DNA of 64,000 nt from Sipunculus nudus. Its lineage: Eukaryota; Annelida; Sipuncula; Golfingiida; Sipunculidae. Positions 30,018 to 52,035 of this stretch are shown here, piece by piece. Position 1 is the stretch's first letter. The number at the start of each line of letters is the position of its first letter. The position numbers were made by a program, and so were the translations under genes. The notes under the pieces are model-generated. The model ran no database searches and was not told the origin of the DNA. It worked only from the letters and a program-made list of their open reading frames with translations. Location of the stretch: positions 13,971,019 through 14,035,018 of the forward strand of contig CM049306.1 of assembly GCA_026874595.1 (NCBI GenBank). Reading direction: 5' to 3'.

Positions 30018-31555
30018 ATGTTATCTACAAAAAAACAGACCTGCATCTTATACTTCGCACTAACTACTGCAACCGTAACGCGCTTTACCTGCGACGCCTT
30101 CGTTGAATTGACAGCAGAACATGCGGCTAGTGGCAAACACACCACGGTAAAGGCTGACCAGTTCGATGATGGCACAACCACACGGGTCCATACCACGACG
30201 GAGAACATTGCATCCAACTATAAAGATCCAACGGTGGCAAAAATTGACAGTACACGAAAGCGGATCATGTCTTCATCGTCTGTCCGGGCAAGCTCATATT
30301 GGAGAGGTTCCTCGGGCATAATACCTACAGGTCTCCCAAAAACAATTGGCCAAAAGACAAACGGTTTAAATGATGTTCCGACCACCACGACGTCAGTATT
30401 AGCAATAAAGAACACAAGTCATATTTGGACAATAAAACCTTCAGCTTTAACAAATAATTGTTCAAGAAACAGTCCAGCCTTTACCACATCAGTGCCCCCT
30501 CTACAGGATGATTCAACTCCAAGAGCAGTTACAAACACACCAGGAAATGATAGAATCATTACCACAGTGACTGTCAGAGTAGTAGAGTCAGGTCCAGGTT
30601 CCAGAAATAACATGTCTAGAAACGACCAAGATTTAACAAGATGGACCTCTCGACTGCTTAGAAATTTGAACCCCAAATCAAATTTTACCGATGGTACTTT
30701 TTACCTTTCAAACGTGACAAATCATTCGACAAGTGAACAAGAAACAGGAGACTCGGAAGTGAATCCGTTAATTATCACATCAAGAGAAGTGTACAAGTAC
30801 GGGATGACTTTCATCTTCGTCTTTGGGGTCGTTGGTAACTCTCTGATCATGCTCATCATATACCGCGGAAAGACAGGTCGCACGTCCAGTAGTTTGTATT
30901 TATTAACTCTTGCTGTTTTAGATCAATACATCATAGTCGCTGCTGTGTTTGGTAGTCATGTGATAAGATCATTTACCGGGTTCGATTATATACGAGCAAG
31001 TCGCCATTCATGTAAAGTCGCCTACTTTACCATTGTCACGTGTGCACAATCTTCTTTCTGGTTAGTTGCCATAATGTGCTTCGAGAGGGCGTTAGTGTTG
31101 ACCCGTCCGATGCGATTCAAAGACAAGTTCAACAAAAAAACCACCAGAGTGATCATCTGCATCACAGTGTTTTTCTGGACGCTAAAAAATGTGCACATGT
31201 TTTGGTCAAACGGTGCCGAATATAAGCGCGACGAAAATGGCACTCTGGTATTGAAGTCAGAGTGTGGTTTTGTTCAAGGCCCATTGCTTGATTTCAACAT
31301 TCGAATCAGACCCTGGATTGACTATGCAGTTACATTTACAGCCGCCTTGGTTATACTGATTTCTAATATCATCATTGTGTGTTTACTTTTACGCTCAAAA
31401 AGACTGCGACGTACCTCGTCCAACAAGGGTCACAGCGGGACGCACCATCACCTGATGGCGATGTTGGTCACTGTCAGCATTGCGTTTCTCGTCTTCGCCC
31501 TTCCTCTCCAAATTGTCACGATCCTGGTTCCCAGGAATCCAAACGACGTTAAAAG
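30018..31555 (+). CDS. GPCR exon 1 (N-terminus to TM6)
   Basis: It codes 512 whole codons plus two bases. The frame runs four bases past the donor before a stop, so a frame-only reading would give a truncated six-helix receptor. Confidence 0.9.
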
Positions 31556-33006
31556 GTAGGTTTTACTGACATAATTCCTACATTTTGTTTTTTTGCAGCG
31601 AATTGCGCACATGGGAATGGGTAATTTTGTTTTTTGTTATGGTAGAAATGGACTATACCTTGGCTGCCAAAGACAAGGTTTAACCCCTATCAGGCTCTTC
31701 GATCGTTTCAGTGCTTGGTGAGGCAAGTTATGAGAAGGCTTTAAAACTAGTGTACCAAATTGATTTAGAGGGGAAGCCCCCCCCCCCCCCCCCCCCCCCG
31801 TTGGCCATAAAAATAAATCTGGATAATAGAATAATACCGATATTTTGCCGGATTTTGCGTCTTTTCTTCCTTTTACTTCTGAATGATATTTATGTTTTGT
31901 TTACTGACAGTCCAGACACATTTGTTTTCCTGCGCCAGGGTGCTGACCCTCCTCTTTTCTAAGATCCTGCATCCTGGGAATCACCCGTCAGAAGGCGAAT
32001 TTATTAATGTGTACCGCAGTTGTTGGCACTTTTGTGATTACAAAGTGACACCGTCAACGAAAGTAGCAGGGGTTACGTGATCTGCCTGGTCTGTGTATAT
32101 TTCTGTGTCCGATGCATATCTAAAAACTCGGAATGAATTCGATGAAATTTTGTGGAAGGATTGGCAATGGGCAAGAGAAGAAAAACTGTAATTTTTGGAC
32201 GGTTCTGCGGGTGCATTCCTCGCCGACCTTTTTCTTTTGCTTTCATATCTTGTTCGAGTCAAGGGAGCAAGAATTCAAATTCAGTGAATCATTCTGGAAT
32301 GGTTGGATAAAGGTCGATTAAAGTTTTGGTAAGGCCTTGGTGCGGTTACAGCTATTGGCACAGGGATGCCCTTTGTGAGTGCTTTCTAGTTTACACCTGT
32401 ATTTTTACCGTCTTCCTTGTGGATTCTGTTACTTAGATATACATGTGTGTTAATTTACGGTTGTTGTACGTAAATTTTGCTCGGGACAACCTCAAGCTCG
32501 GTATTGAATAATGAAACTTTTTTAAATATTATACGTTTCGTTGCATATTTCCTAAGTTTTTACATCATCCAGGATATATTGATGGATATAAGTGTGTTTA
32601 TGCAATGGGGAATCCTATTTTCTCCTTTTTACTCCAACAGCTGCATCAGATTATCACCTATAGAGATAATCATTGGTCATCACACTTTGACATCTTGAAA
32701 TCATATTACGGGGGGGCATATTATGCATTCTTATTAATTTGTTTTTGTTTTCTTTTCAGCGAGGCAGCAGGGAAGGCTTCGCTCCTGTGGTCGCTGGGTC
32801 TGTTGATGAGTTACGCTAACAGCGCTGTCAACTTCTACATCTACTGTGCGAGTTGCCGAATGTTCCGCCATGATTTAGTTGAGATTTTGACATGCAGGAA
32901 ATATAAAGAAAAAGAGGCAACAAACCACAAAAGCATGTCTGGTCATGTAAAATCACATGCAGGTTCGGTTATGGTGAACTCAGAGACCATATCCACAAGT
33001 CTTTGA
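30018..33006 (+). CDS. Rhodopsin-family (class A) GPCR, peptide-receptor-like, two coding exons
   Basis: Predicted cell-surface receptor of 594 residues. Exon 1 is 30018-31555 and exon 2 is 32760-33006, joined as aaag|gtaggt ... tcttttcag|c with an AGC Ser codon split 2+1. Residues 1-25 look like a signal peptide. Residues 30-250 are an unusually long Thr/Ser-rich extracellular domain with six N-glycosylation sequons (N132, N147, N198, N222, N232, N235). Transmembrane helices: TM1 262-283 (GN at 273-274), TM2 291-311 (LAVLD, D302), TM3 331-355 (disulfide Cys C332, then FER in place of DRY), TM4 377-396, TM5 433-458, TM6 478-504, TM7 519-542. C416 is the extracellular-loop-2 partner of C332. 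TM7 ends NSAVNFYIY, so the Pro of NPxxY is Phe, as in FMRFamide/myosuppressin-type receptors. The ligand is unknown; a neuropeptide is my inference. The gene is convergent with the UPF0489 gene to its right. Confidence 0.9.
31556..32759 (+). other. GPCR intron
   Basis: It separates TM6 from TM7 (extracellular loop 3). It contains a C-tract at about 31781-31799 and, near 32130-32230, a fragment (atgaattcgatgaaattttg) similar to the dispersed repeat at 59160. The small open frames inside it are not coding. Confidence 0.85.
32760..33006 (+). CDS. GPCR exon 2 (TM7 and cytoplasmic tail)
   Basis: It begins after tcttttcag and encodes SLLWSLGLLMSYANSAVNFY, then IYCASCRMFRHDL, a typical TM7/helix-8 junction. 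A tail of about 45 residues follows, rich in Lys and Ser. Confidence 0.9.
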
Positions 33007-34773: not shown

Positions 34774-35952
34774 TCATAATTGTTTATGAAGTCTGGGCCA
34801 CCCACCTTGACCTCCGAGTAAGTCCAAATCAAAATGAACTTTGTAAGGATGACTTAATTTTGACCTAAATATATCTAATATCCCATTCTCTATTAACTCA
34901 AAATGGTTCCTAGGCGTGTAACCATCCCTTATTGACCTGCAGACTGTCACAAGCTTTGGATGAGGGTAACGACCGTCAACAAACATTCTCTGTAACCTTT
35001 TTAGGCGGGAATGCACATCAGCCTCGTTTGGAGAGTACCAGAGAACGACGGTTTCGTTTGGATGATTGAAGCCGTGACAAATTTGAAAGGTACCAGACGA
35101 GCGCTTACTGTTGATGAAGAAGCTTGACTTTGGTGTGGTCATCATGCATATTCCTGTCCGCGCGAGAGCTTGCAGGTGAGAGCGTTCAAAATGTAGTAAA
35201 TGTCGGGCAAATGCGTTCATACGTCTGGTGTACACTGCTCGATTTCTAGTGCACAAGTACGCTGGGAATTTGGACATTACTGTCTGGAGATGATTTGCCG
35301 CAAATCTTTGCAGTTGGGACTCGTACCCGACACATGGCATGTTAGAGTTTTTACACAACTCGATGGCTTTGTGAACTATGGGCATCAACAGAGCCTCCCC
35401 GGGAATCTCGTGTTCTGTCCGCCGTGGACACACCAAGCGATTTACCAAGCCATCTATTGTTTCCACCAGAGGCCAGGGGGCGCCAGCATCGACCAGCTGC
35501 TGCCCAGCACTCTGGCAACCAAAAAAGTCCTCATCAATGTCGATCAGAAGTGACTCATCCTGTTTGATCCAGGTACCTGACAACAGGTTCTTCACGGCCT
35601 GGTCTTCCGAGATCTCCTCCCATTCATAGCGACCTTTTATCCTACACTTCTCAGGTGAAAGTTTAAACATTTCTTTATCCATGAAGCCTAAATCAAGCAT
35701 AGTTTTGTTATAGTAAAAACACATTGGGTCCTTTTCTGTAACGATTGTTCGACATGCACAATACACATTTTCTTCCTCCCCCTCTGGGCCTATCACTCGG
35801 GTTTCTCCGTAATTCATGACTCCTCGTAACCACTCTCCATCGGGATGATTCGGAGAATCCCAGCGTGGCCACACCCATATGAACCGCTTGAACATCCCAG
35901 TCATCGCGGCAGCCAGGAAAAAGAAAACATGTACCGGCATATTAAAAGATGT
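34774..35952 (-). CDS. UPF0489 copy A, exon 4 (upstream-acceptor version)
   Basis: The shared coding part starts at 35913 (GCT GCC GCG ATG). The first AG upstream is atgcag, putting the exon start at 35952 with the added residues TSFNMPVHVFFFL. The strong pyrimidine tract (gttttctttttcc) lies between 35952 and 35913, which supports 35913 as the original boundary. The exon carries DIDEDFF and a C-terminal block ([19 protein letters not shown]) nearly identical to copy B. Confidence 0.8.
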   Translation of the reverse strand, partial: TSFNMPVHVFFFLAAAMTGMFKRFIWVWPRWDSPNHPDGEWLRGVMNYGETRVIGPEGEEENVYCACRTIVTEKDPMCFYYNKTMLDLGFMDKEMFKLSPEKCRIKGRYEWEEISEDQAVKNLLSGTWIKQDESLLIDIDEDFFGCQSAGQQLVDAGAPWPLVETIDGLVNRLVCPRRTEHEIPGEALLMPIVHKAIELCKNSNMPCVGYESQLQRFAANHLQTVMSKFPAYLCTRNRAVYTRRMNAFARHLLHFERSHLQALARTGICMMTTPKSSFFINSKRSSGTFQICHGFNHPNETVVLWYSPNEADVHSRLKRLQRMFVDGRYPHPKLVTVCRSIRDGYTPRNHFELIENGILDIFRSKLSHPYKVHFDLDLLGGQGGWPRLHKQL

Positions 35953-36067
35953 CTGCATGAATTTATATTAAATCAGTTATATTGCAATCAAACAAATCAG
36001 CAAAAAATCAGATATGCGACGCTTTCAAGGTTGTTCATGTATCCCGACGTTCAGGAGTACAAATCCA

Positions 36068-36147
<80 letters not shown>

Positions 36148-39007
36148 GTATCATATTTCACCTTGTTCTTTGGTAGGAACAGGATAAGAACATTTGAAGT
36201 ACAAAGATAACTTTTGAATAAAACACAATGTCTATAAAATTTAAAGAAAAACAATCCATCACGTCTAAACATTCATTCATCATGATGTGTGCATGTATGG
36301 GTGCAGTATCGTTTTGCAACAAAGGAAAATCAAAATCAACTGCAAAATTTTGGGCCAATACTTGACACCTTAAAGAGAAAGAGATTAAAATTTTGCGTCA
36401 TGTTTATTACTTCAAGATATTTCACAATTAAATGACTGCGCCTGATTGCAACTGTTTATTAATAACTGAAGCCGATTTAGATCTGACATTTGTAGACCGA
36501 CGTCCTAGCCAACATGGCTGCACCTTCCGATGTCACAAAGTTAAATTTTTTGAGAGGAAAAAAAGTTAAAACTCTCATGGACCGCTTTAATTTTTTACGA
36601 ATTAGCTGACTGTCACGTACGTATGTAGATAGGTTGTCTGTAAGTCCTGTTAAACTTACTTGAACAAAGATGTCGTTTTCTTGCATCATAATCCGCAGCT
36701 CTCTCTTAGTGCGCGGGAAACGGAACTTGGGGTAACCCATAGTGATGTCGGGAGGTGCATCGTCACTATGTCCGTCAATATGCAACTAGAGTATAATATA
36801 TCACATTGCAGTATTGTCAAACATAGAACAAAATTTAACATTACATTGTAATAATGTACAAAGCATAATAATAAAGAAGGAGCATACAAGATTTCACATG
36901 AACTGCATTATAGCATATATTTTATATAGATGTGTATAACAGACAAAGCAATAATCGACAAGTGAACATTAATACAAAGTCCTAACACAATTTTTTATAA
37001 TTAAATAAATATCAGTTAATAACTCGTCAGGTGGACAAACACCACTTAATTAAAACTGACGCTTTAAATTCAGTAATAGTCAGATGGATGACGTAAGAAT
37101 TTTCAGCATACTAAAATGTTTCTTGTAAGAATCCCATTCATAACAGCACATGGAAAAAAAGCTGACCACCATTTTGGCTCCATCTGGGTACATACCAGTA
37201 TATTATTTTTGGAGGGAATGAGGCCCTTCTTGACAGCCGTGAACCAATAAGACAGAGCTGTAACACAAATAAAAGATACTTCAATACATGGTCATTCACA
37301 AGATATTAAATAACTGCAATCAACTAGTCAGATATACAAGAACAAATCAGGCCATTTGTGGAAGGTCAGCATTACTGTTATTACAATATACAATACCTAA
37401 CATCGGAATGCTTAAAAACGTAAGTCGTAAAGTCCCTGGATCAGGATTACGAAAAATCTGATGAATCGATTTCACATGAACTTTGTGGAGGTGTGGGACA
37501 TGTGACTTTGTGGAGGTGAGGGACATGTGACTTTCTGGAGGTGTGGGACATGTGACTTTCTGGAGGTGTGGGACATGTGATTTTCTGGAGGTGTGGGACA
37601 TGTGACTTTCTGGAGGTGTGGGACATGTGACTTTCTGGAGGTGTGGGACATGTAACTTTGTGGAGGTGAGGGACATGTGACTTTTTGGAGTTGTGAGACT
37701 TGTGTCTTTGTGGAGGTGCGGGACATGTGACTTTGTGGAGGTGTGGGACATGTGACTTTGTGGAGGATGTGACTTCTTGGGACATTGGTAGACCAGAAAT
37801 TTTGGTGCGGATCCGGATAAGGGTACTGGATCACTTTTGCACACTGCTCCCTGCTGCCACCTATGCGCTAAAACGGACACTAAAGGTGGATGATTGGAGC
37901 TTGGGTCATGGATGACCCCCATCACATTGTGGTTTGGACCTGAATAAAGAGGCGGATCAAGTGTAAGTTACTTTCCCTTAATTTAGATGTGTGCTCGACT
38001 GATTGCTTTGATATTTTTAACCGGTATTCATAATCATATAAATAAATAGTTAACTTCGTCTTCATCAAATAATTTTAATTTGAGGCCATGGTCACCCGTG
38101 GCAGCGGAAATTAATCAACTTGCGGTAAACCCTTAATGTCAACATTTGGTTTCGAAATCAGGAATATTCAGTGTAAACGTGTTGTAAGTACGACACGAGT
38201 TCACTAAAGCTTCCGTTACACTTGTTTTGGCTCATTAACCCTAATGTATTGAATATTTGATACAATATGTGCCTATATGCAGCACCTGAATATTGTGGAA
38301 ACCAAGACACCCACAATGATATTAAATCAATCTTTTAAAATTTCCCTGTTTGTGTGCCAGGTGATAGCGAATAGGTTATATGTTACGATCAGTAACGGAT
38401 CCAGAGGGGTGTCCAGTGGGTATGGACCCACCCTTTCTCAGCGCCGCAATCATTTTTAAGGAGTTCAGACCACTGGCTTCGACTCTCCGTTTTACTGACC
38501 TGAGCACCTTTTCAGGTCTTCCTGGGTTGCCCCATTCCCTTTTCCCAAAAATCGTAAATCCGCCCCTGTAAATGTTTCATTTTTTTTTAATTTCTAGCAT
38601 AATAACCCCATGGTTACCGATTCAAATAACTGGCCCTAGCATGGACCAACTGTTTATCATCTGCATATATTTATTGACTGAGGATTTCCATACAGCAGAA
38701 CCACAAATTAAAAGACCAAAAAGATTAATGAAGAAATTTCCAGGATTTAGAATATAGATAATGTATATAATGTATCACCTTCATGATGCTCTTCGAAAAC
38801 TACAACTTTTTCGTCCTCATGCCAAGAAGATCCCTGTCTTTTGTTCCGTGATTCTTTGTGATGAGCATCTGAAGGCTGTTTCCACCTCAACAATACCAGA
38901 GACACGGAGAACAGAATGATGCCAATCACTGCAAAGCGCTTCATGCAAGTAGGTGATTTCAGCGCCATCTTCAGGGCGGAAAAACAACTATTTCTTGCAT
39001 GTCTCAT
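34774..39007 (-). CDS. UPF0489 (C5orf22-like) type II membrane protein, copy A
   Basis: Four coding exons on the minus strand: 38779-39007, 37196-37257, 36660-36785 and the last exon ending at 34774. Residues 25-40 are a hydrophobic anchor (FAVIGIILFSVSLVLL) after a basic N-terminus, so the rest should face the ER/Golgi lumen; NKT and NET sequons fit this. The UPF0489 domain shows EEHHEA (residues 72-77), HIDGHSD (99-105) and DIDEDFF (264-270), which resemble the His, DxHxD and DxD metal ligands of arginase-fold enzymes. Bacterial relatives include peptide arginases (Arg to Orn); that activity here is inference. Introns have phases 1, 0, 0, exactly as in copy B. Oddity: the last acceptor reads cctg|gct where copy B has gcag|gct, so the ancestral AG is lost. 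With the ancestral boundary the protein is 518 residues, equal to copy B. The nearest upstream AG (exon from 35952) keeps the frame and adds 13 residues. Downstream of the start all exons are open, so the gene may be functional with altered splicing. Confidence 0.85.
36072..36148. repeat. (AT)n microsatellite in intron 3 of copy A
   Basis: About 30 AT dinucleotides, then an interrupted tail. It generates false Ile-Tyr open frames on both strands. Confidence 0.95.
36660..36785 (-). CDS. UPF0489 copy A, exon 3
   Basis: 126 bases, 42 whole codons, [18 protein letters not shown] onward; donor caa|gtaagt, acceptor ctctag|ttg. It carries the DxHxD metal motif. Confidence 0.88.
37196..37257 (-). 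CDS. UPF0489 copy A, exon 2
   Basis: A 62-base exon: completes an Ala codon and then codes LSYWFTAVKKGLIPSKNNIL. Acceptor gttacag|ct, donor ctg|gtatgt. The same length and phase are found in copy B. Confidence 0.88.
37483..37768. repeat. 25-bp minisatellite in intron 1 of copy A
   Basis: About 11 units of tggaggtgtgggacatgtga plus ctttc. The period of 25 is not divisible by 3 and no stop occurs on the minus strand, so three overlapping frames are open there. They are not genes: they lie in an intron and only reflect the repeat. Confidence 0.93.
38390..38568. mobile_element. MITE of the GGCGGATC family in intron 1 of copy A
   Basis: Ends CAGTAACGGATCCAGAGG and, at the right, TAAATCCGCCCCTG, roughly inverted. 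It contains tcaggtcttcctgggttg, related to the 61038 copy. About 179 bp. Confidence 0.6.
38779..39007 (-). CDS. UPF0489 copy A, exon 1
   Basis: Start chosen at ATG 39007 because the next bases align with copy B from its own ATG (M....NS...). An acceptor-like cgtttcag lies just before it (AG at 39012-39013), suggesting an upstream untranslated exon. It codes the basic stub, the membrane helix, a Ser/Lys-rich stem and VVVFEEHHE; donor gaag|gtgata. Confidence 0.83.
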
Positions 39008-39924
39008 GTCGCTGAAACGTGAATTGTTTTCAAAAGCTAATTTATAAAAGAAGTAAAAACTCATTGATACCAGTCTGCAAGCATGCTGCGGTGCACAGAG
39101 ATTAATAAATGTTACGAAATGGCCAAGATCAACATGACTAACATGACAAACTAAAGACTGAAGTTTAAAAAATACAAAATGTATTTACTATATTTTAATA
39201 TTACAGAATAAAATTGTGCAGCACTGGTATATCTTTTTATCTCTTCCTCATTAGAAAGAACACATATGAGACAAATGTACCTAAATGAAATATAGATAAA
39301 ATAAAGAGAGAGATGTACGTAGCACAAATAGTAATTTGAGATACTTTGTTCAAGAATGCATGGCGGAGTATGCATTGTGTACCAATTCGTTGCCGCCAAA
39401 GCATTAATATACAAATCACGTTATAATTTAGGCCAAAAGGATACTTCCAGATAAGATGGTAAAATTGTGGCGTATTACGTATCCGCCTGTCGTTTATATC
39501 CTCAGCGAGTATCAAAATACAGAGTTAAAGGATGACTTCCCGCAATGTGTAACACAGTTACAAATTATTTTATATGCAACTTCTCAGTTCCTCTTACATT
39601 ATGTCTGATATTGGCGATTAGATAAAGTATAAAGCACGAATAATTTAATCATTTATTATAATCATACCACAAATTATAATTCTAAATACAGTTCTGTAAT
39701 GTGAGAACAATGTATGTTATAAAATATATTCATTTGGTATAACGAAAAGTGATAAGCGTTACATTCATGGTATCGCTAACATTATGCAAATAACCCAAAG
39801 TATTTTACATACATAAAATATAACCAGCACGTTGTCATACTGGACATTGTGGTCTTATTGCCGTTGATTGTATCAATATAATTTGGCAGCCAAAAAATTA
39901 TGGAAGAAAATCATTTATATAGTA

Positions 39925-40400
39925 GAAAGAAAAAAAGTGGAGCCACCAGTGTTCAGGAACTGAAGAAACCAGTCATAATCAATAAACACACCAGGTTTAA
40001 GGGACACAAGATAAAACCAAAGTTAAGAAACTGACATAATTGCGGTCATTTGAAAATCTTAAAAACAGAAAAAAATCGTAAAATTGGGGGGGGGGGGGGA
40101 ATGCAGGTGGCGTGAACTGACAACCCTAGTCATGGTTAACATTCAAGCAAAGATTTATTTATTCTGGGGGCTACTTATACAAGCCCTATAAATCGAAGGA
40201 TATAGGTCACAGCTACCCAATTTCAGATTTCCAAGGATATTTTTTATTGATCTCTCTGGGGTTTTTTTCAGTTACAGGTTTCTAGGTGCAATGGTGTCGA
40301 AACGTGCCAGTCTAACGTACGGATAGACACACAGACAGACGGACGGACGACGGACGCTGACCGATCATTATAGCTCAGTTGACTTACAGTCAGTTGAGCT
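39925..40400. repeat. Dispersed repeat, same family as 50275-50818
   Basis: It shares ccagtcataatcaataaaca and caggtttaaggg-like sequence with the second copy, and ends in a gacagacggacgg-type run followed by agttgacttacagtcagttg. Internal G-tract at 40086-40099. Confidence 0.7.
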
Positions 40401-40646
40401 AAAACAGCTTGCTATTTATGCACTCCTTTATATAAATCATGTTTATCGATTTACAATTATTGTTTAATGTTGCATGGCCCTTCTTGATTACCTTAATTGT
40501 CTGGGTTGGGGGGGTGGGGGGGGGGGGGATAGCCACCATCAGTGCAATACCATATCAGTGTATTACCATATAAAATATATTATACATTTTACCAATTAAT
40601 ATATATATATATATGTGTGTGTGTGTGATCTATGCTTAGACATATT

Positions 40647-40881
40647 CAGGGGCGGGTCCATGCAGGATTTAGGAAAAGGGGGATCCAACCCAGGTGGGCT
40701 AATGACAAAAAAAGGGCCCAAGATCAGGAAAAGTGGAGGGGGAGGGGGGGTTCAGGCCTTTCGAAGGGTTTCGGCGGCTGAAAAAGTGGATTCCCTGGAA
40801 CCCGCCCCCCCCCCCCAACCCCAACCCAAATCTGCTTCTGATAATGTCCCGCCCCCAGAAAAATTCCTGGATCCGCGCCTG
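40647..40881. mobile_element. MITE of the CAGGGGCGGATCC family
   Basis: Left end CAGGGGCGGGTCCATGCAGG, right end CCTGGATCCGCGCCTG, near-perfect inverted repeats. About 235 bp with C- and G-rich interior. No clear 8-bp duplication. Confidence 0.68.
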
Positions 40882-41438
40882 ATTACAGCCCAAATTTGCA
40901 GACTACAACCTACGTCACACTCCTTCCTCGGGCTAGCTGTTCGGGTATCTATAATCTAAAATGCTGTATCCGCCCCTTATTCCTAAATTATAATGCATGG
41001 AGTAGGCAAAAAAGGCTCAAGGGTTATTAAACACCTCTGTGATTCCTAGTAAGCGCCTCAACAATAATTCATTTGTCATGTCAAAAGGCTGAAGCGTAAT
41101 GAATGGTCAGCTTTTGTCAACTCGACCTCGTCGTCACATACCTGTTCATCCTGGTACCGGGGCGACATCTCTACGCATTACTGTTATTAGAAGGATATTT
41201 ATCGGCACTTCTGAAAGAAAGCTTCCTTGTCATGACCTAGTCAAATATAAATATCTAATGTAACAGTAAGTTTCATATTTCAATTAATATTAATGATGAG
41301 ACCCGGCGGGGAGGGGGGGGGGGGTCTATAAAGAGTCAAATTCATGAAAATAACAAGTATTGACCCTGCCACCTGCCACGATCTAAACTGGTGAAGCCTT
41401 ATAATTAGTTTTATGACAGATCAAATAATAATATAATT

Positions 41439-41745
41439 CAGTGGCGTCAATTTATCTTCAAGAGTGGAGGTGGGGTGACTCACAGGGATGGGAGGATAAA
41501 AAGTTAGTAGTGGTTCCACTGTATGTATATATTCTTTTTATAGTCTGTAAGACATAAATTACATATATTACATATTATATATATAAGGTTAAAAAAAATA
41601 AGGTATTATGTTTCCAGTATATGTTATTTCTAAACCAGGTTTGGGTATAAAATATTTCATATTCAACTCAGTATTAATATATTTGATTTCCAGTATATAA
41701 ATATTTTTTTTTTAGAATATCGGGGGGTGGGGTGATTACATCGAC
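41439..41745. mobile_element. hAT-like MITE, right end lost
   Basis: Starts CAGTGGCGTCAATTTATCTT as in the 20918 copy, and contains the shared aaggtattatgtttccagta. The homology stops near 41745, where a GC-rich stretch with different end-like words (acgtaggtccggtgtgaaag) follows, possibly another insertion. Confidence 0.62.
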
Positions 41746-43364
41746 GTATTGCCACGTAGGCATAGCGTTGGGAACCGAAAGCTCGGCGTAGTCGGTACGC
41801 CGCACTACGCAACTCTACGTAGGTCCGGTGTGAAAGGGGCTTTACAGGCTGCAAAACAGGCATCATGTTGAACTGATATAGAGCTCGACAGAATTTCTTA
41901 AATATAGAGGAAAATCCCCTTAGATTATTATGGTATTTTGAATGGTAATTTGAGTAGGAAAATATAATGTCTTTTTATTGTTCCATTCAAATGAATTCCG
42001 AGAGAGACAAGCAGACAACATTCAGCAGACAGATAATTTACGGCAAGTTGAGAGTCACATAGTACGGGAGACTATATGGTAAAATTAAATATTAATCCAG
42101 GCGTTCAGATTACTTATTCATATCCGATATTGATACAGCTCTACAAAACCATGTTAAACTCTGCGAGAGGTTCGCTTTCTTTTCATGGTTTTACGATTCC
42201 CATAATCTAGGTCAACCTCTTAGTTATAATATTAAACGTTTGTTACAAATCGCGGTATGACAGTAACATAAAACTGAAAGAAAAAAAATTGTCGACCAGG
42301 CGCAATCTGCTATCATGGTAATCGCATGGTGGCGCGGGAGGTTCGTCCCCATCCCGCTCCTCCTCCCCCTCCCCCCCCCCCCCCCCCTTCTTGTACCACA
42401 GGTACCTGACGTGTAAAGCTGTGGGGTTTTTTTTCAAAGTATAAAAGATACACAACCTCTGAGTCGGAAATAGAGGCTATCGTGTATAATTTGAACAAAA
42501 ATACTGATTTATGCTGGATTTGCACTGAGGTATCGGTGTGACAGATCGTGTTTACAGGTATACTTACGTAAAATATGTAACCTTGTTCCAAGCTGTAAAA
42601 GGTACACACAGATACACATTAGCTATCTACATGCACAGCAGACTCCTCCCAGTACACAAGTATACGTGTAAGTGTACCCAACCATGTACCTGAGTATTCA
42701 CAACAGTGGAACAGCTTACGGTGAAGTTTGTGGCAAAAGCTCAAAATGTCCGGCCAACATCCGCGATGCTATGGTTTTAGTGCCTTTGTTCTGAACGGCA
42801 ACACATTGGATGTTATTCAGTGAGTAGACGACAGACACATACGGGCCTCTTGTGTCTCTGCACACACCGTCACAAATCTTCCACGCGATCAGTTTCACAT
42901 AGCTGGGCATATCCATACAGTCCGCCTCACACAGGCGTTTACAGTTTACAGTTCCGGGTTCGCTGTAAGTTCCTCAGCATATCCCGCGTTTTTGTTCTGA
43001 ATGCCCACGTACTGACTTAGTCAAAGCGGATTCTAAGAACAATTCATTATCTATTACATAGACATGGAATGTAAAACCTAGCTGTTAGCTGCATATATAT
43101 GCCTCGTTCAGGGTCTACTGATAATATGCTGAGTTTTTGCGATCACATTGACCGCCTTTCCATCAATCATAAGCATGTATATGGTGTTTGCACTAAGCTA
43201 CTAGGCTACGATCATTTATCTTCATCACTGCTATATATAAACACTATAAAACTGACTTACTCGGTTAATAAAAAAGAATAGAGATTATGGCAATTATTGA
43301 TTTCTAAAAGGGATCCATGTGATGCTACTGCAAATTATTCTCAAATTTTTACGTTTTCATAAAA
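41746..43364. other. No gene seen
   Basis: Non-coding, with a C-tract at about 42362-42388. Small frames here have no family features. Confidence 0.4.
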
Positions 43365-43690
43365 AAGTGGCTCATGGGCCACGAAGCTCAGCTAAATTTG
43401 ACTGAGTGCTCATTTCTTTTATTAATGAAATATTGGCAGAAAATAAAAATACAAATTTCAGGATTCATAGGAGACCTGCCAAGGACACCCCCCCCCCCCC
43501 CCCCGGATATCACAGAAAATGGACACAATTTGTACCCTGTCTGTCTTGGTGCTCAAAATCATGTTTCTCGTCCATAGCTCGCAAAATATAGGTCACCATG
43601 ACCTAATTTCAGTTTTTCCAAGGAGATTTGCCAAGGACCTCCCTGAATGTCATGTTAGAAGAGTCTAGGGCAAATGGAGACAATTTGTGC
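43365..43690. repeat. ~150-bp dispersed repeat, left block
   Basis: Contains gtggctcatgggccacgaag, then units with ataggtcaccatgacctaat, tccaaggagatttgcc and aaggacctccctgaatgt. The block is cut off at 43690 by the Mutator-like copy. Confidence 0.7.
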
Positions 43691-44205
43691 TATTCGCTCT
43701 TTACACAGCGCTTTACCCATAGGCCAACTACCTATATCGTAAGCGCTGTTTTTTATGACCTTGTATCATGAATCTCTACACCAGAGGGGATCACTGTATT
43801 TTGGTCCAATCAGATGAGACCCTGTGCTAGTCTCTTACACAGACACACGGTGGCCAGGCTACCCCTGTGCTGGAAGCAAAACGGTTTACCAGCCAGTCGA
43901 GGAATACACGAAGCCAATGTTGTTCATTTCGTTTTGAGTGACAGCTCATCGCCCCGGCGACCGTTAAAACAGGCCACAAGCTCAGAGAAAATTGCCCCTC
44001 ACGTGGTTTCTGGGTGGAGCCTGATGCTTGTCGAGTATTTGTTGACTTGCATTTGGTTGGCTGATAGTCACATCAGCAGTTTTTTAAGCAATCAGGCCCA
44101 TGTGCACCACCTGGTGTTTAAATGCATCATAAACAGTCAATGCAGTCAGCGGGAAAATCATTAGTTTCTTTAGAAGCACACGATTTCCGCTACCTCGGGA
44201 GCGTA
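43691..44205. mobile_element. Second Mutator-like element copy, inserted in the ~150-bp repeat
   Basis: Strong similarity to 21431-22132 from cgctctttacacagcgcttt through tccaatcagatgagac to ccgctacctcggga, with a right end GAGCGTA that matches the inverted left end. It is about 190 bp shorter, from internal deletion. The flanks do not show a clean 9-bp duplication, so its edges may have been rearranged. Confidence 0.7.
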
Positions 44206-45190
44206 CTAGGCCTAATGCATACAATGTGTACCAATCTGACGTTAAAGGTACTCAAATCATGTTTTTGGCCTGTCACATGCAGGTTTCCAGTGGGATTTGC
44301 AAAGATCTCCCTGGATGTTGTGTTGCAATATTTTAGGGCTAAAGGATACAATTTATGCCTTATCTGACTGTATTTGACATGTATTGTAAAAATTAATTTA
44401 CCTAATTTCAGGATTCAAAGAAGACTTGCCAAAGACCTCCCTAGACTTTCCAATATAAGGTTAAAAGAAAAATAGATACAATTTGTACCTTGTCTGTCTG
44501 GATGCTCAAATTCATATTTTTTATGGCTCATAGCGCATTACATAATTTCTGGTTTCCAAAGAGATTTGCCTTTAACCTCCCTAGATGTTGCTTTAGAAGA
44601 TTCTAGGCCTAATGCATACAATTTGAGCCCATCTGACATTCAGGGTGCTCATATGACACCTTTTCCCCTGCTGGTTGCAGAATATAGGTCACAGTAAACA
44701 AATTTTCATATTTCCAAGGATATTTGCCTGGGACCTGCTTGAATCTTATGTAAGAATATTCTAGGCTCATGGATACAATTTGTGCCCCTTCTGGGTGCTC
44801 AAAATCATTTTTTCTGCCTAAGTTGCAAAATATAGGTCACCATGACCTAATTTCGGGTTTCCAAAGAGATGTGCCTAAAACCTACCTGGCTTTTGTGTTA
44901 GAAGATTCTGGTCCGATTTGTGCCTCTCTGACATTCATAGTGCTCATATGACATTTTTTCTTAAAGGTTTCAGAATATAGGTCACTATGATCTAATTCCA
45001 TGTTTCATTTGCCTGGGAACAGCCTTGATCATGATATAAGATTCTAGGCCTAATGGATAAAATCTGTGCCTCCTCTGACTGTCTGGGTGCTCAAAACCAT
45101 TTTTCGGCCAATAGGTCAAAGAATATAGGTCACCATGACCTACTTTCAGATTTCCAAGGACATTTGCATAGGACCTCCCTGAATTTCTGG
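44206..45190. repeat. ~150-bp dispersed repeat, right block
   Basis: About six units, each with a match to ttctaggcctaatgcataca, atttgtgcc, a ggtgctcaaaatcat phrase, ataggtcaccatgacctaat and tttccaaggagatttgcc. Spacing of the last phrase is about 140-150 bases. Confidence 0.75.
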
Positions 45191-47375
45191 AACTCAAAAC
45201 AGTCTACCATCACAGTGCGCACAACTTGGAACAAGCTACCATCACACTGGGTGCAGTTCAGAACACGCTACCATCACAGTGGGCGTAACTCGGAACACGC
45301 TTTCATCATACTTGGCGCATTAGAAAACATAATACCATCACACTGAGCGCAACTCAGAATACACTACCATCACACTGGGTTGCAGTTTAGAAAACGCTAC
45401 CATCACACGGGGCACTTCTCTGTACACGCTACTATCACCCTGGACGGAACTCGCTACAATTACACTGGGCGGAACTCGGAACACGCTACAATCACACTGG
45501 CCCAAACTCATCATCTTGGACGGAACTCGGAACACTACCATCACACTGAGCACAACTCGGAACACGCTTCCATTTCACTGAGCACAACTCAGAACACACA
45601 TTTTCATCACACTGGGTGCAGGTCAAAGCACGCTACCATCACACTGGGCGCAACTCAGAACACGTATCTATCACACTGGGCGCAGTTCAGAACACGCTAC
45701 CATCACACTCAGCACAACTCGGAACACGCTTCCATTTCACTGAGCACAACTCGGAACACGTTTCCATAACACTGAGCACAACTTAGAACATGCTTCCATC
45801 ACACTGAGCACATCTTGGAACTCCCTACCATCACACTGGACGCAACTCGGAACACAATACCAGAGAGCACGCAGTGCACAGCTCAGAACACGCTACAATC
45901 ACACTTCTCGAAACTCAGAACACGCTACCGTCACACTGGGCGGAACCCGGAACACGCAACCATCACACTGGGCGCAACACTGTACACGCTACCATCACAC
46001 TCGGCGCAACTTGGAACACGCTGCCATCACACTGGGCGCAACTCAGAATACGCTACCATTACACCTGGCGGAACTCGGAACAGGCTATAATCACACTGGG
46101 CCCAACTCAGAATACGCTTCCATCATCCTTGACGGAACTCGAAACACTACCATCACACTAAGCACAACTCAGAACACACACTTTCATCACACTGGGTGCA
46201 GGTCAAAACACGCTACCATCACACTTCTCGCAACTCAGAACACGCTACCATCACACTGGGCGGAACCCGGAACACGCAAACATCACACTGGGCGCAACAC
46301 TGTACACGCTACCATCACACTCGGCGCAACTTGGAACACGCTGCCATCAAACTGGTCGCAACTCAGAATACGCAACCATCACACCTGGCGGAACGCGGAA
46401 CACGCTACAATCACACCGGGCGCAACTCAGAACACGCTTCTATCACACTGGGCGCAGTTCAGAACACGCTGCCATCACACTCCGCACAACTCGGAACACG
46501 CTTCCATTTCACTGAGCACAACTCAGAACACATTTCTATCACACCGAGCACATACTGGAACTCCCTACCATCACACTGGACGTAATTCGGAACACAATAC
46601 CAGATAGCACGCAGTGCACAGCTCAGAACACGCTACAATCACACTTCTCGCAACTCAGAATACGCTACCGTCACACTGGGCGGAACCCGGAACAGGCAAC
46701 CATCGCACTGGGCGCAACACAGAACACGCTACCATCACTGAGCACAACTCGGAACACGCTACCATCACATTTGGTGCAGTTCAGAACACGCTACCATCAC
46801 ACTCGGCGCAACATGGAACACGCTACCATCACACCGGGAGGAACTCGGAACACGCTACAATCACACTGGGGCCAACTCAGAATACGCTTCCATCATCCTG
46901 GACAGAACTCGGAACACTACCATCACACTGGTCGCAACTCAGAACACGCTACAATCACACTGGGCCCAAGTCAGAATACGCTTCCATCACACCGGGCGGA
47001 ACTCGGAACACGCTACAATCACACTGGGCCCAACTCAGAATACGCTTCCAACACCCATGACGGAACTCGGAACACTACCATCGCACTGAGCACAACTCAG
47101 AACACACACTTTCATCACACTGGGTGCAGATCAAAGCACGCTACCAACACGCTGGGCGCAACTAAAAGAACACGCTTCTATCACACTGGGCGCATTTCAG
47201 AACACGCTACAATCACACTGAGCTCGGAACACAATGCCAGACAGTACGCTGTGCACAGCTCAGAGCACGCTACCATCACACAGAGCACAACTTGGAACAC
47301 GCTACCATATCACCCTGGTCGCATCTCAGAACACGCTACCATCATGGGTGAAACTAGAACACACGACAAAGTTAA
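45191..47375. repeat. Large 32-bp minisatellite
   Basis: About 65-70 units of ctaccatcacactgggcgca plus actcagaacacg. Unit starts at 45204, 45236, 45268 and 45300 give a period of exactly 32. Blocks of units also repeat as higher-order copies (for example around 45845-46100 against 46575-46860). All three plus-strand frames stay open over hundreds of bases because 32 is not a multiple of 3 and the unit has no stop in those frames; the long Thr/His/Asn-rich frames are not genes. Confidence 0.95.
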
Positions 47376-47459
47376 CAGACTTTCACATTGGGTAAAAACT
47401 GACAAAAAGCAGACAATTCTAAATTAACACATTTATGGGATTTGTCCTTCTATTTTTAA

Positions 47460-48602
47460 TCATTCTGACAAATTATGGGTATCATGAATTCTTGGCCACC
47501 CACCTCGACCTCCAAGCAAGTCCAAATCAAAATGAACTTTATAGGGATGACTTAATTTTGACCTAAATATATCTAATATTCCATTCTCTATGAACTCAAA
47601 ATGATTCCTTGGCGTGTAGCCATCCCTGATTGACCTACAGACTGTCACTAGTTTTGGCTCAGGGTAACGCCCCTTTACAAACATACTCTCTAGCCGCTGG
47701 AGTCGGGAACGTACGTCCGTTTCGTCTGGCCAGTACCAACGAACAACAGTATCGTTGGGTTGATTGACACCGTGACAGATTTGAAAGGTTCCGGACCAGC
47801 GTTTAGTGTTGATGAAAAAATCAGATTTGGGAGTAGTCATCATACATATCCCCGTCTTAGCAAGAGCCAAAAGCTGGGATCGTTCAAACTTCTTCAAATG
47901 TTTGGCAAATGTGTGCATCCTTCTTATATAGTCAGCTTCGCTTTTGGTGCACAGGAACGAGGGGGATTTAGACATGACTGTCTTCAGATGATTGGCTGCA
48001 AATTTCTTTAGGTCAGACTCGTACCCACCGCATGGGGTATTAGTGTGCTTGCATAACTCAATAGCTCTGTGAACTACGGGCATCACGAGAGCTTCTCCAG
48101 GAATTTCATGAGCAGTTCGGCGTGGACAAACTAGCTGATCTATAAGCTCGTCAATAGTTTCCACCAGCCCCCATGAGACGCCAGCGTCCACCAGTTGCTG
48201 CCCAGCACTCTGGCAGCCAAAGAAATCTTCATCAATATCCACCATGAGGGACTCGTCTTGATTTATCAAAGTACCTGACATTAACTTCTTCATGGCTAAG
48301 TGTTCTCCCACCTCCACCCATTCATACGAACCTTTAATCCTGCATTCATCTTCATCCAGTGGAAACACCTCTTTCTCTTCAAAGTCAGTCATATTCTCGT
48401 GCAGGGAGTAGCACTCTAGTCTGTTTTCTTCTGTAACATGCTTGCAGCCACAAAATACATCTGTCTTTCCTTGGGGGCCTATAAGGGTGGCTTCGCCATA
48501 TTGGATGATTTCGCTGACCCACGCCCCGTCAGGGTGATCCAGTAGATCCCAGTGCGGCCACACCCAGATGATGCGTTTGAACATACCAGTCATCGCCGCA
48601 GC
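47460..48602 (-). CDS. UPF0489 copy B, exon 4
   Basis: Acceptor ctgttttgcag|gct; begins [18 protein letters not shown]. It encodes 380 residues and the stop, including DIDEDFF and many Cys (for example FCGCKH and DECRIKG). Confidence 0.92.
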   Translation of the reverse strand, partial: AAAMTGMFKRIIWVWPHWDLLDHPDGAWVSEIIQYGEATLIGPQGKTDVFCGCKHVTEENRLECYSLHENMTDFEEKEVFPLDEDECRIKGSYEWVEVGEHLAMKKLMSGTLINQDESLMVDIDEDFFGCQSAGQQLVDAGVSWGLVETIDELIDQLVCPRRTAHEIPGEALVMPVVHRAIELCKHTNTPCGGYESDLKKFAANHLKTVMSKSPSFLCTKSEADYIRRMHTFAKHLKKFERSQLLALAKTGICMMTTPKSDFFINTKRWSGTFQICHGVNQPNDTVVRWYWPDETDVRSRLQRLESMFVKGRYPEPKLVTVCRSIRDGYTPRNHFEFIENGILDIFRSKLSHPYKVHFDLDLLGGRGGWPRIHDTHNLSE

Positions 48603-51331
48603 CTGCAAAACAGAGAGAGTGAAAATAATATTAATACAGAAAGTGGTAAATATTTCAAATATATCTTTAGTGTCTTTTCCGTTAAATTACACCATTCCTT
48701 GAATTCATTGTTTGCACATGTAAGGACCATTTTTGCAACTGGCTCTTCATTGCAACTCCAGTCCTCACCATGAACCAGCTTCTAACCCCCTTCCACATTC
48801 CTTTATTCTGTCCTTGAATAAAGTACATTTGTGCTGTATCCTTGATTGGAAATACCCCCAGATCTTTCATTATCACGAGAGTACAATCTAATAGACAAAA
48901 CTGTCTGCGCTTTTATATTCCTATGAGAATCATACATCAGGCAAAATGGGTTCCTATATTATGACTTTTCAGGTTTATAAATTTCCACATTCGTCTTGTT
49001 GTGGCATTGGTCACCAACAACGCTGGTCCTGGGTGAAAAATTATATTTTATCCTCATACCGGAGGCAAGACATCCTCCATGTTAGGGTGGACACGTTTAT
49101 GTGCAATGTCAACCTTTTGTGCTGGAACGCCAGTCACTTTTTAGTTTTCACCTGCCACCGATTAAAATTTTAAAAATGGCTGGCGTTGCCTGTCGATTTG
49201 ATCAGGTTTGATATTCTTACCTGGAGGAAGATATCGTTTTCCTGCATCATCCGCCTCAGCTCCCTCTTACTTCGCGGTAACCTGAACTTGGGGTATCCCA
49301 CAAAAAACTCCGGCGGGGCGTTGTCACTGTGGCCGTCGATGTGCAGCTGCAACATAATTATGGGATTATATATATGTTCTGTAATATATACATATATTGT
49401 CCCATGGACCCAGCAGTGAGATTCTCAGAGGTCAAGGACAAACATTATCGTCAAGTGGCAAACATTATCGTCAAGTGGAAATAATTTCAATGTGATACAC
49501 TTCAGTTGAAAATTGATTTTCAATTTGAAATTAAATAATATAGTTTCAGGAGACACGCTCATTTCATTATCTGTTTATAAATTTTGTATTTAATTCCCTT
49601 ACTTTAACACACAAATATATAATGATAAAACTGGCGCAAAAGTTTTTTTCCTTAACATATGTTAATGTCTCTTAAATAGGATTACTATATCTCCTTTGTT
49701 CGCATTTACTCTCTTTCAAACTAGGGACCCATTGGTCTCGACGCTCAGCTGAATTTTTTATCTAAAATGATATGTTTTTGAGCTTTATTGAGCTTGTTTT
49801 GAGCTGAATGTGGGTCCTGTGATAAAATTTGAAGCCAATCTGTCTACCCAAACTGGAGTTATCCATAAACTAATTTGGGAAAGAATGGGCCCTATGACCT
49901 TGATATTTGAGCTTGTGAACCAAAAATCAAACATAATCTTCCCCCTATTGACAGATGAGCCACATGTGGAAGATGGAAGGTTTAAGATGAAAATTTTGGC
50001 GTAAAATGCATCTGCATATAGATCAATAGAATTCTTGCTTCTGGGGTGGGCCATATATACCTCAAGTTTGAAATCGATATGTGAATCCAAAATTGAGTTA
50101 TCATCAGGAAACAAATTTGACGGACGTAAAGAAGACGAACAGACGGACAGACAGGGTGATAACTACAGGGTATCTGCTTATTTAAGCGGGGCCCTGACAA
50201 GCTCACAAGGTTTCAGGACACTAGATGGAACCATAGCTGTAACTATGATTGTATAAATATAATATGGCAGTCTCAAAATAAAGGGGAAAATGCTACAAAA
50301 AAAATACAGATGGCGCCATGAGTTTTCAGAAACTGAAGAATCCAGTCATAATCAATAAACACGCCAGGTTTTGGGATACTAGAAGAAACTAAAGTTGAGA
50401 AAATGACATGATCGCTGTCATTTGACGTTTAAAAAAAACAGAATGAATATCGTAAAAATTATTTTTAAAAAATGCAGGTGGCGCCACCAGTTTTCGGGAA
50501 TTGTCAACCCTAGCCTTGTTCAATATTCAAGGCAAGATTCAGCAATCCATCCATTAATTATAAAGATACTAGAGGGTTTGGTATATCATTTTTTAATTAT
50601 TCTGGGGGGGGGGGGGGGTACTTATAAGCCACATAGCTCAAAGATTATAGGTCACAGTGACCTAATTTCAGTGAATTCCCCTGGATATTCAGTTACAGGT
50701 TTCTAAGGTCAGCCGGTATGGTTTGTGCCCTGCTAACGGACGGCCAGACGGCCGGACGGACGACAGACAAAGCGCCATTCATATATACCTCAATTGACAT
50801 TCAGTCAGCTGAGCTAAAAAGCAGATGATTGATCCCTTTAAAGTGCATCGAATAAAAAAACATACCAGAACGTTATCTTTGGCTGGAATAAGCCCTCGTT
50901 TGATAGCCGTGAACCAGTAAGGAAGAGCTGCAATTGCGAAATATAGATTAGGTATATATGTATAATGAACTGAAAATGCAACTGAAACGTAACGTTTACT
51001 CCTAGATATAACCAACACTTTTGAGTTGCGCTGGAGATGCACTGGATATATATCGCTCATGAGACAGGCCCCTCTCATTATGTTAGGATTAGTTAAAAAA
51101 AAAAAAACAATACACCCCTAACTAATGAACAATATCTCACATAATATACAGATAAATAACAGGACAGTGTCCAAGAAACCAGGAGGGTTTATCGCTACAC
51201 AATAAGGCTCTTTATCTGAACAACTCTATACCCAGTGATAATGTGTCAGAAACATATATTAATCTGCTGTCTTGTATGTTATCATCCTTTCAGCTCCAGG
51301 AACTTTGGTTAAACATGATTAACCATGATTG

Positions 51332-51385
<54 letters not shown>

Positions 51386-51432
51386 TTATATATCATATAT
51401 AAGGCTTTTACAATCTTTATATTATACACTTC

Positions 51433-51478
<46 letters not shown>

Positions 51479-52035
51479 GTGTGAGGGTGTGTGTACTGAT
51501 AAATCAATGTAAAACGACTTAAATGGAAGCACATGTTGGTTTTATATTGTCATAAATAAAGAAAATTAAGCATGTGGACGTATCAGTTCAACAATCTTAT
51601 AAGTCGACAATGTTAAGGCAATCCCGGGAAGAGAGAGCACGCATGGCCTGTTCATTGACATCAATGATTACAAGACAAAGGCTTGTAGAAATAATGAAAA
51701 AACATTTTCAAACAGAAGAAAATGTAATATTGCATGCAGATGTCTGATCAGGAAACATGAAAAGGGAAAAATCGATGAGTTTGGAACTCGTGACAGCTGG
51801 TCTGATTACCTTCATGGTGCTCCTCAAACACAACCACCCTCTCATCTCGCTCCCATAATGCATCGTGTCTGCTGCCCTGGCTCTGACTTTTACGGACGTC
51901 AGGGGGATGCTTCCAGTCCAACAGTAACAACAAAAACGCAGATGAAGCCAACACAATTACAATTATTCGTCTGAGGCACACATTTGAGCTCATCGCTGTC
52001 CTTAAACCGACGACGAAACTGTTAAATGCTGTCAT
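47460..52035 (-). CDS. UPF0489 (C5orf22-like) type II membrane protein, copy B
   Basis: Predicted protein of 518 residues from four minus-strand exons: 51810-52035, 50866-50927, 49221-49346 and 47460-48602. All introns are GT-AG, with phases 1, 0, 0. Residues 24-39 ([16 protein letters not shown]) form a single anchor after a basic stub, so the body should be luminal; NMT and NDT sequons agree. UPF0489 signature: EEHHEA (71-76), HIDGHSD (98-104) and DIDEDFF (260-266), which resemble the metal ligands of the arginase fold. In bacteria this family includes enzymes that convert peptide arginine to ornithine; an animal substrate is not known to me and the activity is inferred. Copy B is closely similar to copy A throughout, most of all in the last 60 residues, and lies about 12.7 kb from it in the same orientation, so the pair is a tandem duplication. 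There is no retention motif at the C-terminus (THNLSE). Confidence 0.9.
49221..49346 (-). CDS. UPF0489 copy B, exon 3
   Basis: 42 codons, [18 protein letters not shown] onward; acceptor atgttgcag|ctg, donor cag|gtaaga. Confidence 0.9.
49720..50165. repeat. Dispersed repeat in intron 2 of copy B
   Basis: It opens with gggacccattggtctcgacg, similar to gggacccatgggtcacggac at 61379, and ends in an agacggacagacagg run typical of this repeat type. It is non-coding. Confidence 0.5.
50275..50818. repeat. Dispersed repeat in intron 2 of copy B
   Basis: Homologue of 39925-40400: ccagtcataatcaataaaca, caggtggcgccaccag, a G-tract at 50606-50618, and a closing gacggacgacagac run followed by cagtcagctgagctaaaa. 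Confidence 0.72.
50866..50927 (-). CDS. UPF0489 copy B, exon 2
   Basis: 62 bases; completes Ala and codes [20 protein letters not shown]. Acceptor caattgcag|ct, donor ctg|gtatgt. It ends about 48 bases from the dispersed repeat. Confidence 0.9.
51335..51468. repeat. Pair of (AT)n microsatellites in intron 1 of copy B
   Basis: AT runs at about 51335-51383 and 51434-51468 separated by a 50-base spacer. Confidence 0.95.
51810..52035 (-). CDS. UPF0489 copy B, exon 1
   Basis: ATG at 52035 chosen because a credible acceptor (ttttattttatgttccag) lies 8 bases upstream of it, so the open frame further upstream is probably intron. Copy A has its ATG at the equivalent place. An alternative start at Met15 (MSSNVCLRR) would still keep the anchor. 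Donor gaag|gtaatc. Confidence 0.85.

Follow-up and report, generated by a model that had tools for sequence, protein, structure and literature searches.

Tandem membrane-anchored UPF0489 genes in the sipunculan Sipunculus nudus: possible lumenal relatives of the bacterial peptide arginases

The bacterial peptide arginases OspR, FlmR, OhkR and PbsE are the closest described relatives of the proteins discussed here, and in the literature matches listed, taken by the available parts of their text, all biochemical knowledge of peptide arginases comes from bacterial pathways. The paper on OspR (PMC10028609) assigns two manganese ions to six ligands: H12 and D43 bind MnA, H41 and D167 bind MnB, and D39 and D165 bind both. 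In the same account a role is proposed for Glu11, the position of the His proton shuttle is occupied by Ile73 and that of Glu277 of human arginase-1 by Ser264, and the protein forms a homodimer via an added domain (residues 170-234). Here we describe two genes, A and B, which lie in a stretch of 64,000 nucleotides of Sipunculus nudus (assembly GCA_026874595.1, contig CM049306.1, positions 13,971,019 to 14,035,018; henceforth the window) and which, together with a third copy, D, most likely form a real and well conserved secretory branch of the peptide-arginase family. A reading of the window from its sequence alone (the sequence-only reading) had proposed tandem, membrane-anchored UPF0489 proteins with arginase-type motifs at 34774..52035, and our analysis bears this out: there are two minus-strand genes, each encoding a UPF0489 domain behind a single N-terminal hydrophobic segment.

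Gene A starts at 51993 and ends at 47460, while gene B starts at 38968 and ends at 34774, the last position of its stop codon. Each gene consists of four coding exons with phases equal between A and B, one exon being only 62 bp long (184/62/126/1143 bp in A, 190/62/126/1140 bp in B), and the spliced products have 504 and 505 residues, respectively. The layout of both proteins is the same, i.e. a short tail, one hydrophobic anchor, a stem and the UPF0489/PF12640 domain. When the genome to which the window belongs (1.43 Gb, 153 contigs) was searched with protein A as query, ten matching stretches were found, namely the four exons of A, the four exons of B and two exons of D, whose other two exons were located by script; only the best candidates were scored, so further distant copies are possible. 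The paralogue D (L029/L030, C1:100925638-100929465) is situated on the same contig, some 87 Mb from A and B, and it also has four exons (178/62/126/1134 bp), an anchor and a translation of 500 residues, counting the stop. A and B are identical in 335 of 500 aligned residues, while D is more distant from both (203 out of 486 residues identical with A and 202 out of 488 with B, about 41%). The nonsynonymous divergence between A and B (dN) is 0.223 and the synonymous divergence (dS) is 1.93 (Nei-Gojobori method with Jukes-Cantor correction; dS is near saturation), which shows that the two genes are under purifying selection. Two observations mean that these genes are more than chance open frames: their frames stay intact at a dS of about 1.9, and the same anatomy recurs in D at another site in the genome.

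Membership in the UPF0489 family is seen in the PF12640 profile, which matches A with 44.3 bits (3.2e-11) and B with 38.4 bits (2.1e-9) at a gathering cut-off of 27 bits; the match covers only profile positions 1-85 of 167, and exon 4 taken alone gives no PF12640 match. The relation to peptide arginases, also part of the sequence-only reading, is supported by the PDB sequence search, where OspR (8BRP_A) was the sole match at E<=10 for both A (1e-13) and B (1.4e-13). A profile built from A, B and D matched OspR at 7.9e-19, with the next match at 0.23. Conventional arginases were absent from the PDB sequence matches of A, of B and of this profile. The NCBIfam peptide-arginase model NF052474 (FlmR/OhkR family) gave 93.0 bits for A (2.2e-26) and 88.3 bits for B, both far below the curated cut-off of 350 bits, a cut-off that was also missed by the OspR-like bacterial protein L006 (305.2 bits) and by four other bacterial proteins that were scored. 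Bacterial homologues were found at eleven loci out of 225 pattern matches, and a profile of ten of these eleven matches OspR at 3.1e-120 and the A/B/D profile at 1.1e-22 (99.5%), the latter over 85 N-terminal columns. In pairwise comparison A scores 54.3 bits with L004, its best bacterial homologue, and 53.1 bits with L002. Note that L004 (L004:2390-3385, from Elusimicrobia) has a cysteine at the place of OspR D165 (LDVCLDYF), possibly a sign of an altered or dead metal site.

It is instructive to compare A, B and D with the OspR-type enzymes in terms of residues. The shared motifs are EEHHEA (EEHNEA in OspR), LLHxDxHSD, DIDxDxFxC and PKLxxxCRSxxxGYTP. In A the metal ligands H12, D39, H41, D43, D165 and D167 of OspR correspond to H59, D86, H88, D90, D248 and D250, respectively, while Glu11, Ile73 and Ser264 correspond to E58, I121 and S448. 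The six ligands and the equivalents of Glu11 and Ser264 are identical in A, B and D; the place of Ile73 is taken by Ile in A and B and by Ala in D, so that the His proton shuttle is absent from all three, as it is from OspR. The three motifs that the sequence-only reading had singled out (HHE, DxHxD and DxDxD) are present in both A and B as EEHHEA, DGHSD and DIDED. Measured against the OspR-type consensus EEH(N/H)EAF, DXHXD and LDIDLDYFSC, all three proteins have EEHHEAL (one residue different) and DGHSD, and their third motif differs in four residues in A, in four in B and in two in D (LDIDEDYFGC), with the ligands exact throughout. There are also clear differences from the OspR-type enzymes. 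Firstly, A and B have a membrane anchor, many cysteines and introns. Secondly, A exceeds L006 in length at two places of the alignments: the stretch from the W of the IIWV/VYWL strand to the DIDxD motif is about 37 residues longer, and the stretch from that motif to CRS, the site of the OspR dimerization domain, about 100 residues longer. The region found at the place of the added domain 170-234 is the larger one in A. Thirdly, no gene cluster for a ribosomally synthesized and post-translationally modified peptide (RiPP) was noticed in the window, where no systematic search for one was made.

Insertions of this size raise the question of whether A, B and D might be catalytically dead lumenal proteins that retain the fold in a binding or structural role, the more so as the cysteine in L004 indicates that the family can lose ligands and as activity in A, B and D is read from sequence. 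We consider this improbable, in view of the fact that three out of three paralogues retain the six ligands, Glu11 and Ser264, though 59% of the other aligned residues of A and D beyond the anchor differ. The complete set of two-metal ligands speaks likewise against a lumenal hydrolase from the arginase-deacetylase superfamily that catalyses another reaction, e.g. of amide or deacetylase type. Such an enzyme would be in keeping with a published tree in which UPF0489 is one clade within the arginase-deacetylase family (PMC5454378), and the Ala of D at the place of Ile73 suggests that the pocket is not fixed; however, the characterized PF12640 members named in the available literature excerpts (OspR, FlmR, OhkR and PbsE) are peptide arginases, and we regard a change of reaction as having little probability.

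The nature of the substrate is a separate matter. The metal site is common to conventional and peptide arginases (PMC10028609), all of its ligands are kept in A, B and D, and the choice of substrate cannot be read from ligands. A, B and D might therefore be ureohydrolases with this fold, placed in the lumen or at the cell surface, whose substrates are not peptides but free or small guanidino compounds such as arginine, agmatine or methylarginines. Against this, OspR is described as lacking almost all residues by which free arginine is held at its amino and carboxyl groups (PMC10028609), and it is the sole relative that the PDB sequence search found for A and B; moreover, the Ser at the place of Ser264 and the absent His shuttle fit peptide arginases. 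The conventional arginases (EC 3.5.3.1) share with A and B the superfamily and the two-manganese site as published for OspR (PMC10028609), but their motifs GGDHS, DAHXD and SXDXDXXDP are absent from A and B. A small-molecule substrate appears unlikely, and a peptidyl arginine seems the better candidate.

The secretory location suggested by the sequence-only reading receives indirect support from several features. The strongest hydrophobic 19-mer has a mean Kyte-Doolittle value of 2.33 in A, 2.12 in B and 2.46 in D, and it is the single N-terminal segment in each protein; beyond residue 45 the best 19-mer reaches only 1.13, 1.06 and 1.20, respectively. A and B contain 13 cysteines each. All 12 cysteines beyond the anchor are invariant in A, B and D, as compared to 41% identity (179 out of 435) for the other residues of A and D; the crude chance of keeping 12 out of 12 is 2e-5, a figure that ignores the generally high conservation of cysteine. 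Sequons number three in A and two in B; one is common to A, B and D (alignment column 423), and another lies at column 205 (B and D) or 207 (A). No KDEL-type C-terminal signal is present in the sequences of A, B and D. Taken over three copies, the single anchor, the invariant cysteines and the recurrent sequons point to a lumenal or extracellular domain that is probably disulfide-bonded. The charges that flank the anchor are positive on both sides and do not decide the orientation, which leaves some room for the idea that the hydrophobic N-terminus is no lumenal anchor at all, and that the domain is cytosolic or the protein located elsewhere. One might also cite human C5orf22, for which a 16.7-fold enrichment in Golgi pull-downs was reported without strong colocalization with a Golgi marker (PMC10193996). 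Nevertheless, invariant cysteines and recurrent sequons are typical of lumenal and extracellular domains, and we think it very improbable that the domain lies outside the secretory pathway or the cell surface.

On balance we lean slightly towards the view that A, B and D are type II anchored lumenal manganese enzymes which convert peptidyl arginine to ornithine and urea. The steps that we propose follow from homology to the published OspR scheme (PMC10028609). The short cytosolic tail and the single signal anchor would hold the UPF0489 domain in the lumen of the Golgi or at the cell surface, and this domain, presumably braced by disulfides, would bind two manganese ions via the OspR-type ligands. 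The two ions together with D90 would activate a water molecule for attack on the guanidino carbon of the substrate arginine side chain, while E58 would help to hold the guanidinium; urea would then leave, and an ornithine residue would remain in the passing secretory peptide or protein.

Two points weigh against this interpretation. Firstly, the fold is supported by sequence homology and by a model that is partial and weak. A second model, made from exon 4 of A alone, ranked OspR first (Foldseek probability 0.99, but E 0.16). Secondly, the last intron of gene B ends in TG, whereas A and D have AG there (35914-35952). Gene B is therefore possibly impaired or mis-sequenced; the TG may have arisen by recent damage, may be an acceptor of the rare TG kind, or may come from a base-call error. 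With D as outgroup, the private changes beyond the anchor number 16 in B and 19 in A, which indicates that B has not decayed.

A further question is how A and B relate to C5orf22, with which the sequence-only reading had contrasted them on account of their anchor. The same genome has a C5orf22-type gene at C11:2042965-2045392, found by PF12640 search (L015, with a later exon in L018), so that A and B are not this genome's C5orf22-type gene, which stands separately on another contig. The contrast thus holds at the level of separate genes; as regards the anchor, it should be kept in mind that the C5orf22-type gene was pieced together without its first exon. It carries the motifs DSHPD, DVDLDFFS and, spread over later exons, SRSSEDDYCP. 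The PF12640 domain and arginase-type motifs are common to both types (the comparison being with the gene of this genome and not with the human protein). For the pieced product PF12640 gives 143.3 bits and NF052474 gives 72.7 bits, an order of the two models opposite to that for A (44.3 and 93.0), although part of this contrast arises because the two models differ in length. Its best PDB match is again OspR (1.1e-5), and in pairwise comparison it scores 31.2 bits with A and 41.2 bits with L001. The tree gives no settled branching order for the A-type and C5orf22-type lineages.

The sequence-only reading had also held that a secretory arginine-modifying enzyme in an invertebrate would be new. 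None of the matches listed from the open-licence literature on UPF0489, peptide arginase, PF12640 and C5orf22, as far as their available text goes, describes a UPF0489 protein of the secretory pathway. The broader idea has predecessors: human C5orf22 has been hypothesized to be a peptide arginase (PMC10028609), and ornithine is known in the secreted human peptide HNP-1, where ART1 forms ADP-ribosylarginine that is then hydrolysed non-enzymatically (PMC3163396). Ornithine in a secreted animal peptide thus has a precedent by another route, whose chemistry is unrelated to arginase.

If our interpretation is correct, animals would possess a dedicated enzyme for making the rare residue ornithine in secreted peptides, and an anchored branch with invariant cysteines and an intact two-metal site would place this reaction in the secretory pathway. 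We speculate, with about even expectations, that this animal lineage has a dedicated, disulfide-braced family of Golgi or cell-surface peptide arginases that install programmed ornithine in secreted peptides and proteins, in parallel to the maturation of bacterial RiPPs. With a secretory location, the substrates would be readable by mass spectrometry of secreted peptides, and the question of a peptide-arginase activity in animal UPF0489 proteins would become directly testable. The change from arginine to ornithine (-42.02 Da) would be worth seeking in animal peptidomes.

The exons of the two genes, all on the minus strand, are arranged as follows. In gene A, exon 1 (51810..51993) is an open frame that encodes the tail, the putative signal anchor, the stem and the EEHHE metal/catalytic motif and ends at the donor GAAG|gtaatc; an in-frame ATG at 52035, upstream of the start used here (51993), could add 14 residues to the tail. 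Exon 2 (50866..50927; 62 bp, 21 protein letters; acceptor ttgcag, donor gtatgt) connects exons 1 and 3 in frame, and exon 3 (49221..49346; acceptor ttgcag, donor gtaaga) carries LHIDGHSD with the DxHxD metal motif. Exon 4 (47460..48602; acceptor ttgcag; 380 codons and the stop) encodes the remaining domain with the DIDED metal motif, the 11-letter motif and Cys-rich insertions. In gene B, exon 1 (38779..38968; donor GAAG|gtgata) encodes the anchor and EEHHE, and it is followed by exon 2 (37196..37257; 62 bp; acceptor ttacag, donor gtatgt) and by exon 3 with LHIDGHSD (36660..36785; acceptor tctag, donor gtaagt). Exon 4 of B, with the stop, occupies 34774..35913 if the homologous TG acceptor is used (...tttttcctg|GCTGCC); alternatively, an in-frame AG 39 bp upstream would extend it to 34774-35952 and add 13 residues. 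The GT-AG rule is followed by each of the three introns in A and by introns 1 and 2 in B.

Two repeats accompany the genes. A degenerate 32-bp minisatellite of about 57 to 66 copies occupies 45205-47344, stopping about 115 bp past the 3' end of the coding sequence of A, and it yields long chance open frames on the plus strand. A tandem repeat with a 25-bp unit (11.6 copies) lies at 37480-37771, within intron 1 of gene B. The window also contains a gene of a rhodopsin-family G-protein-coupled receptor on the plus strand, at 30018-31556 and 32515-33003 (PF00001; the first part scores 69.1 bits). This gene has a long Ser/Thr-rich N-terminal region, and the stretch 32515-33003, which has no Pfam match, resembles its last exon.
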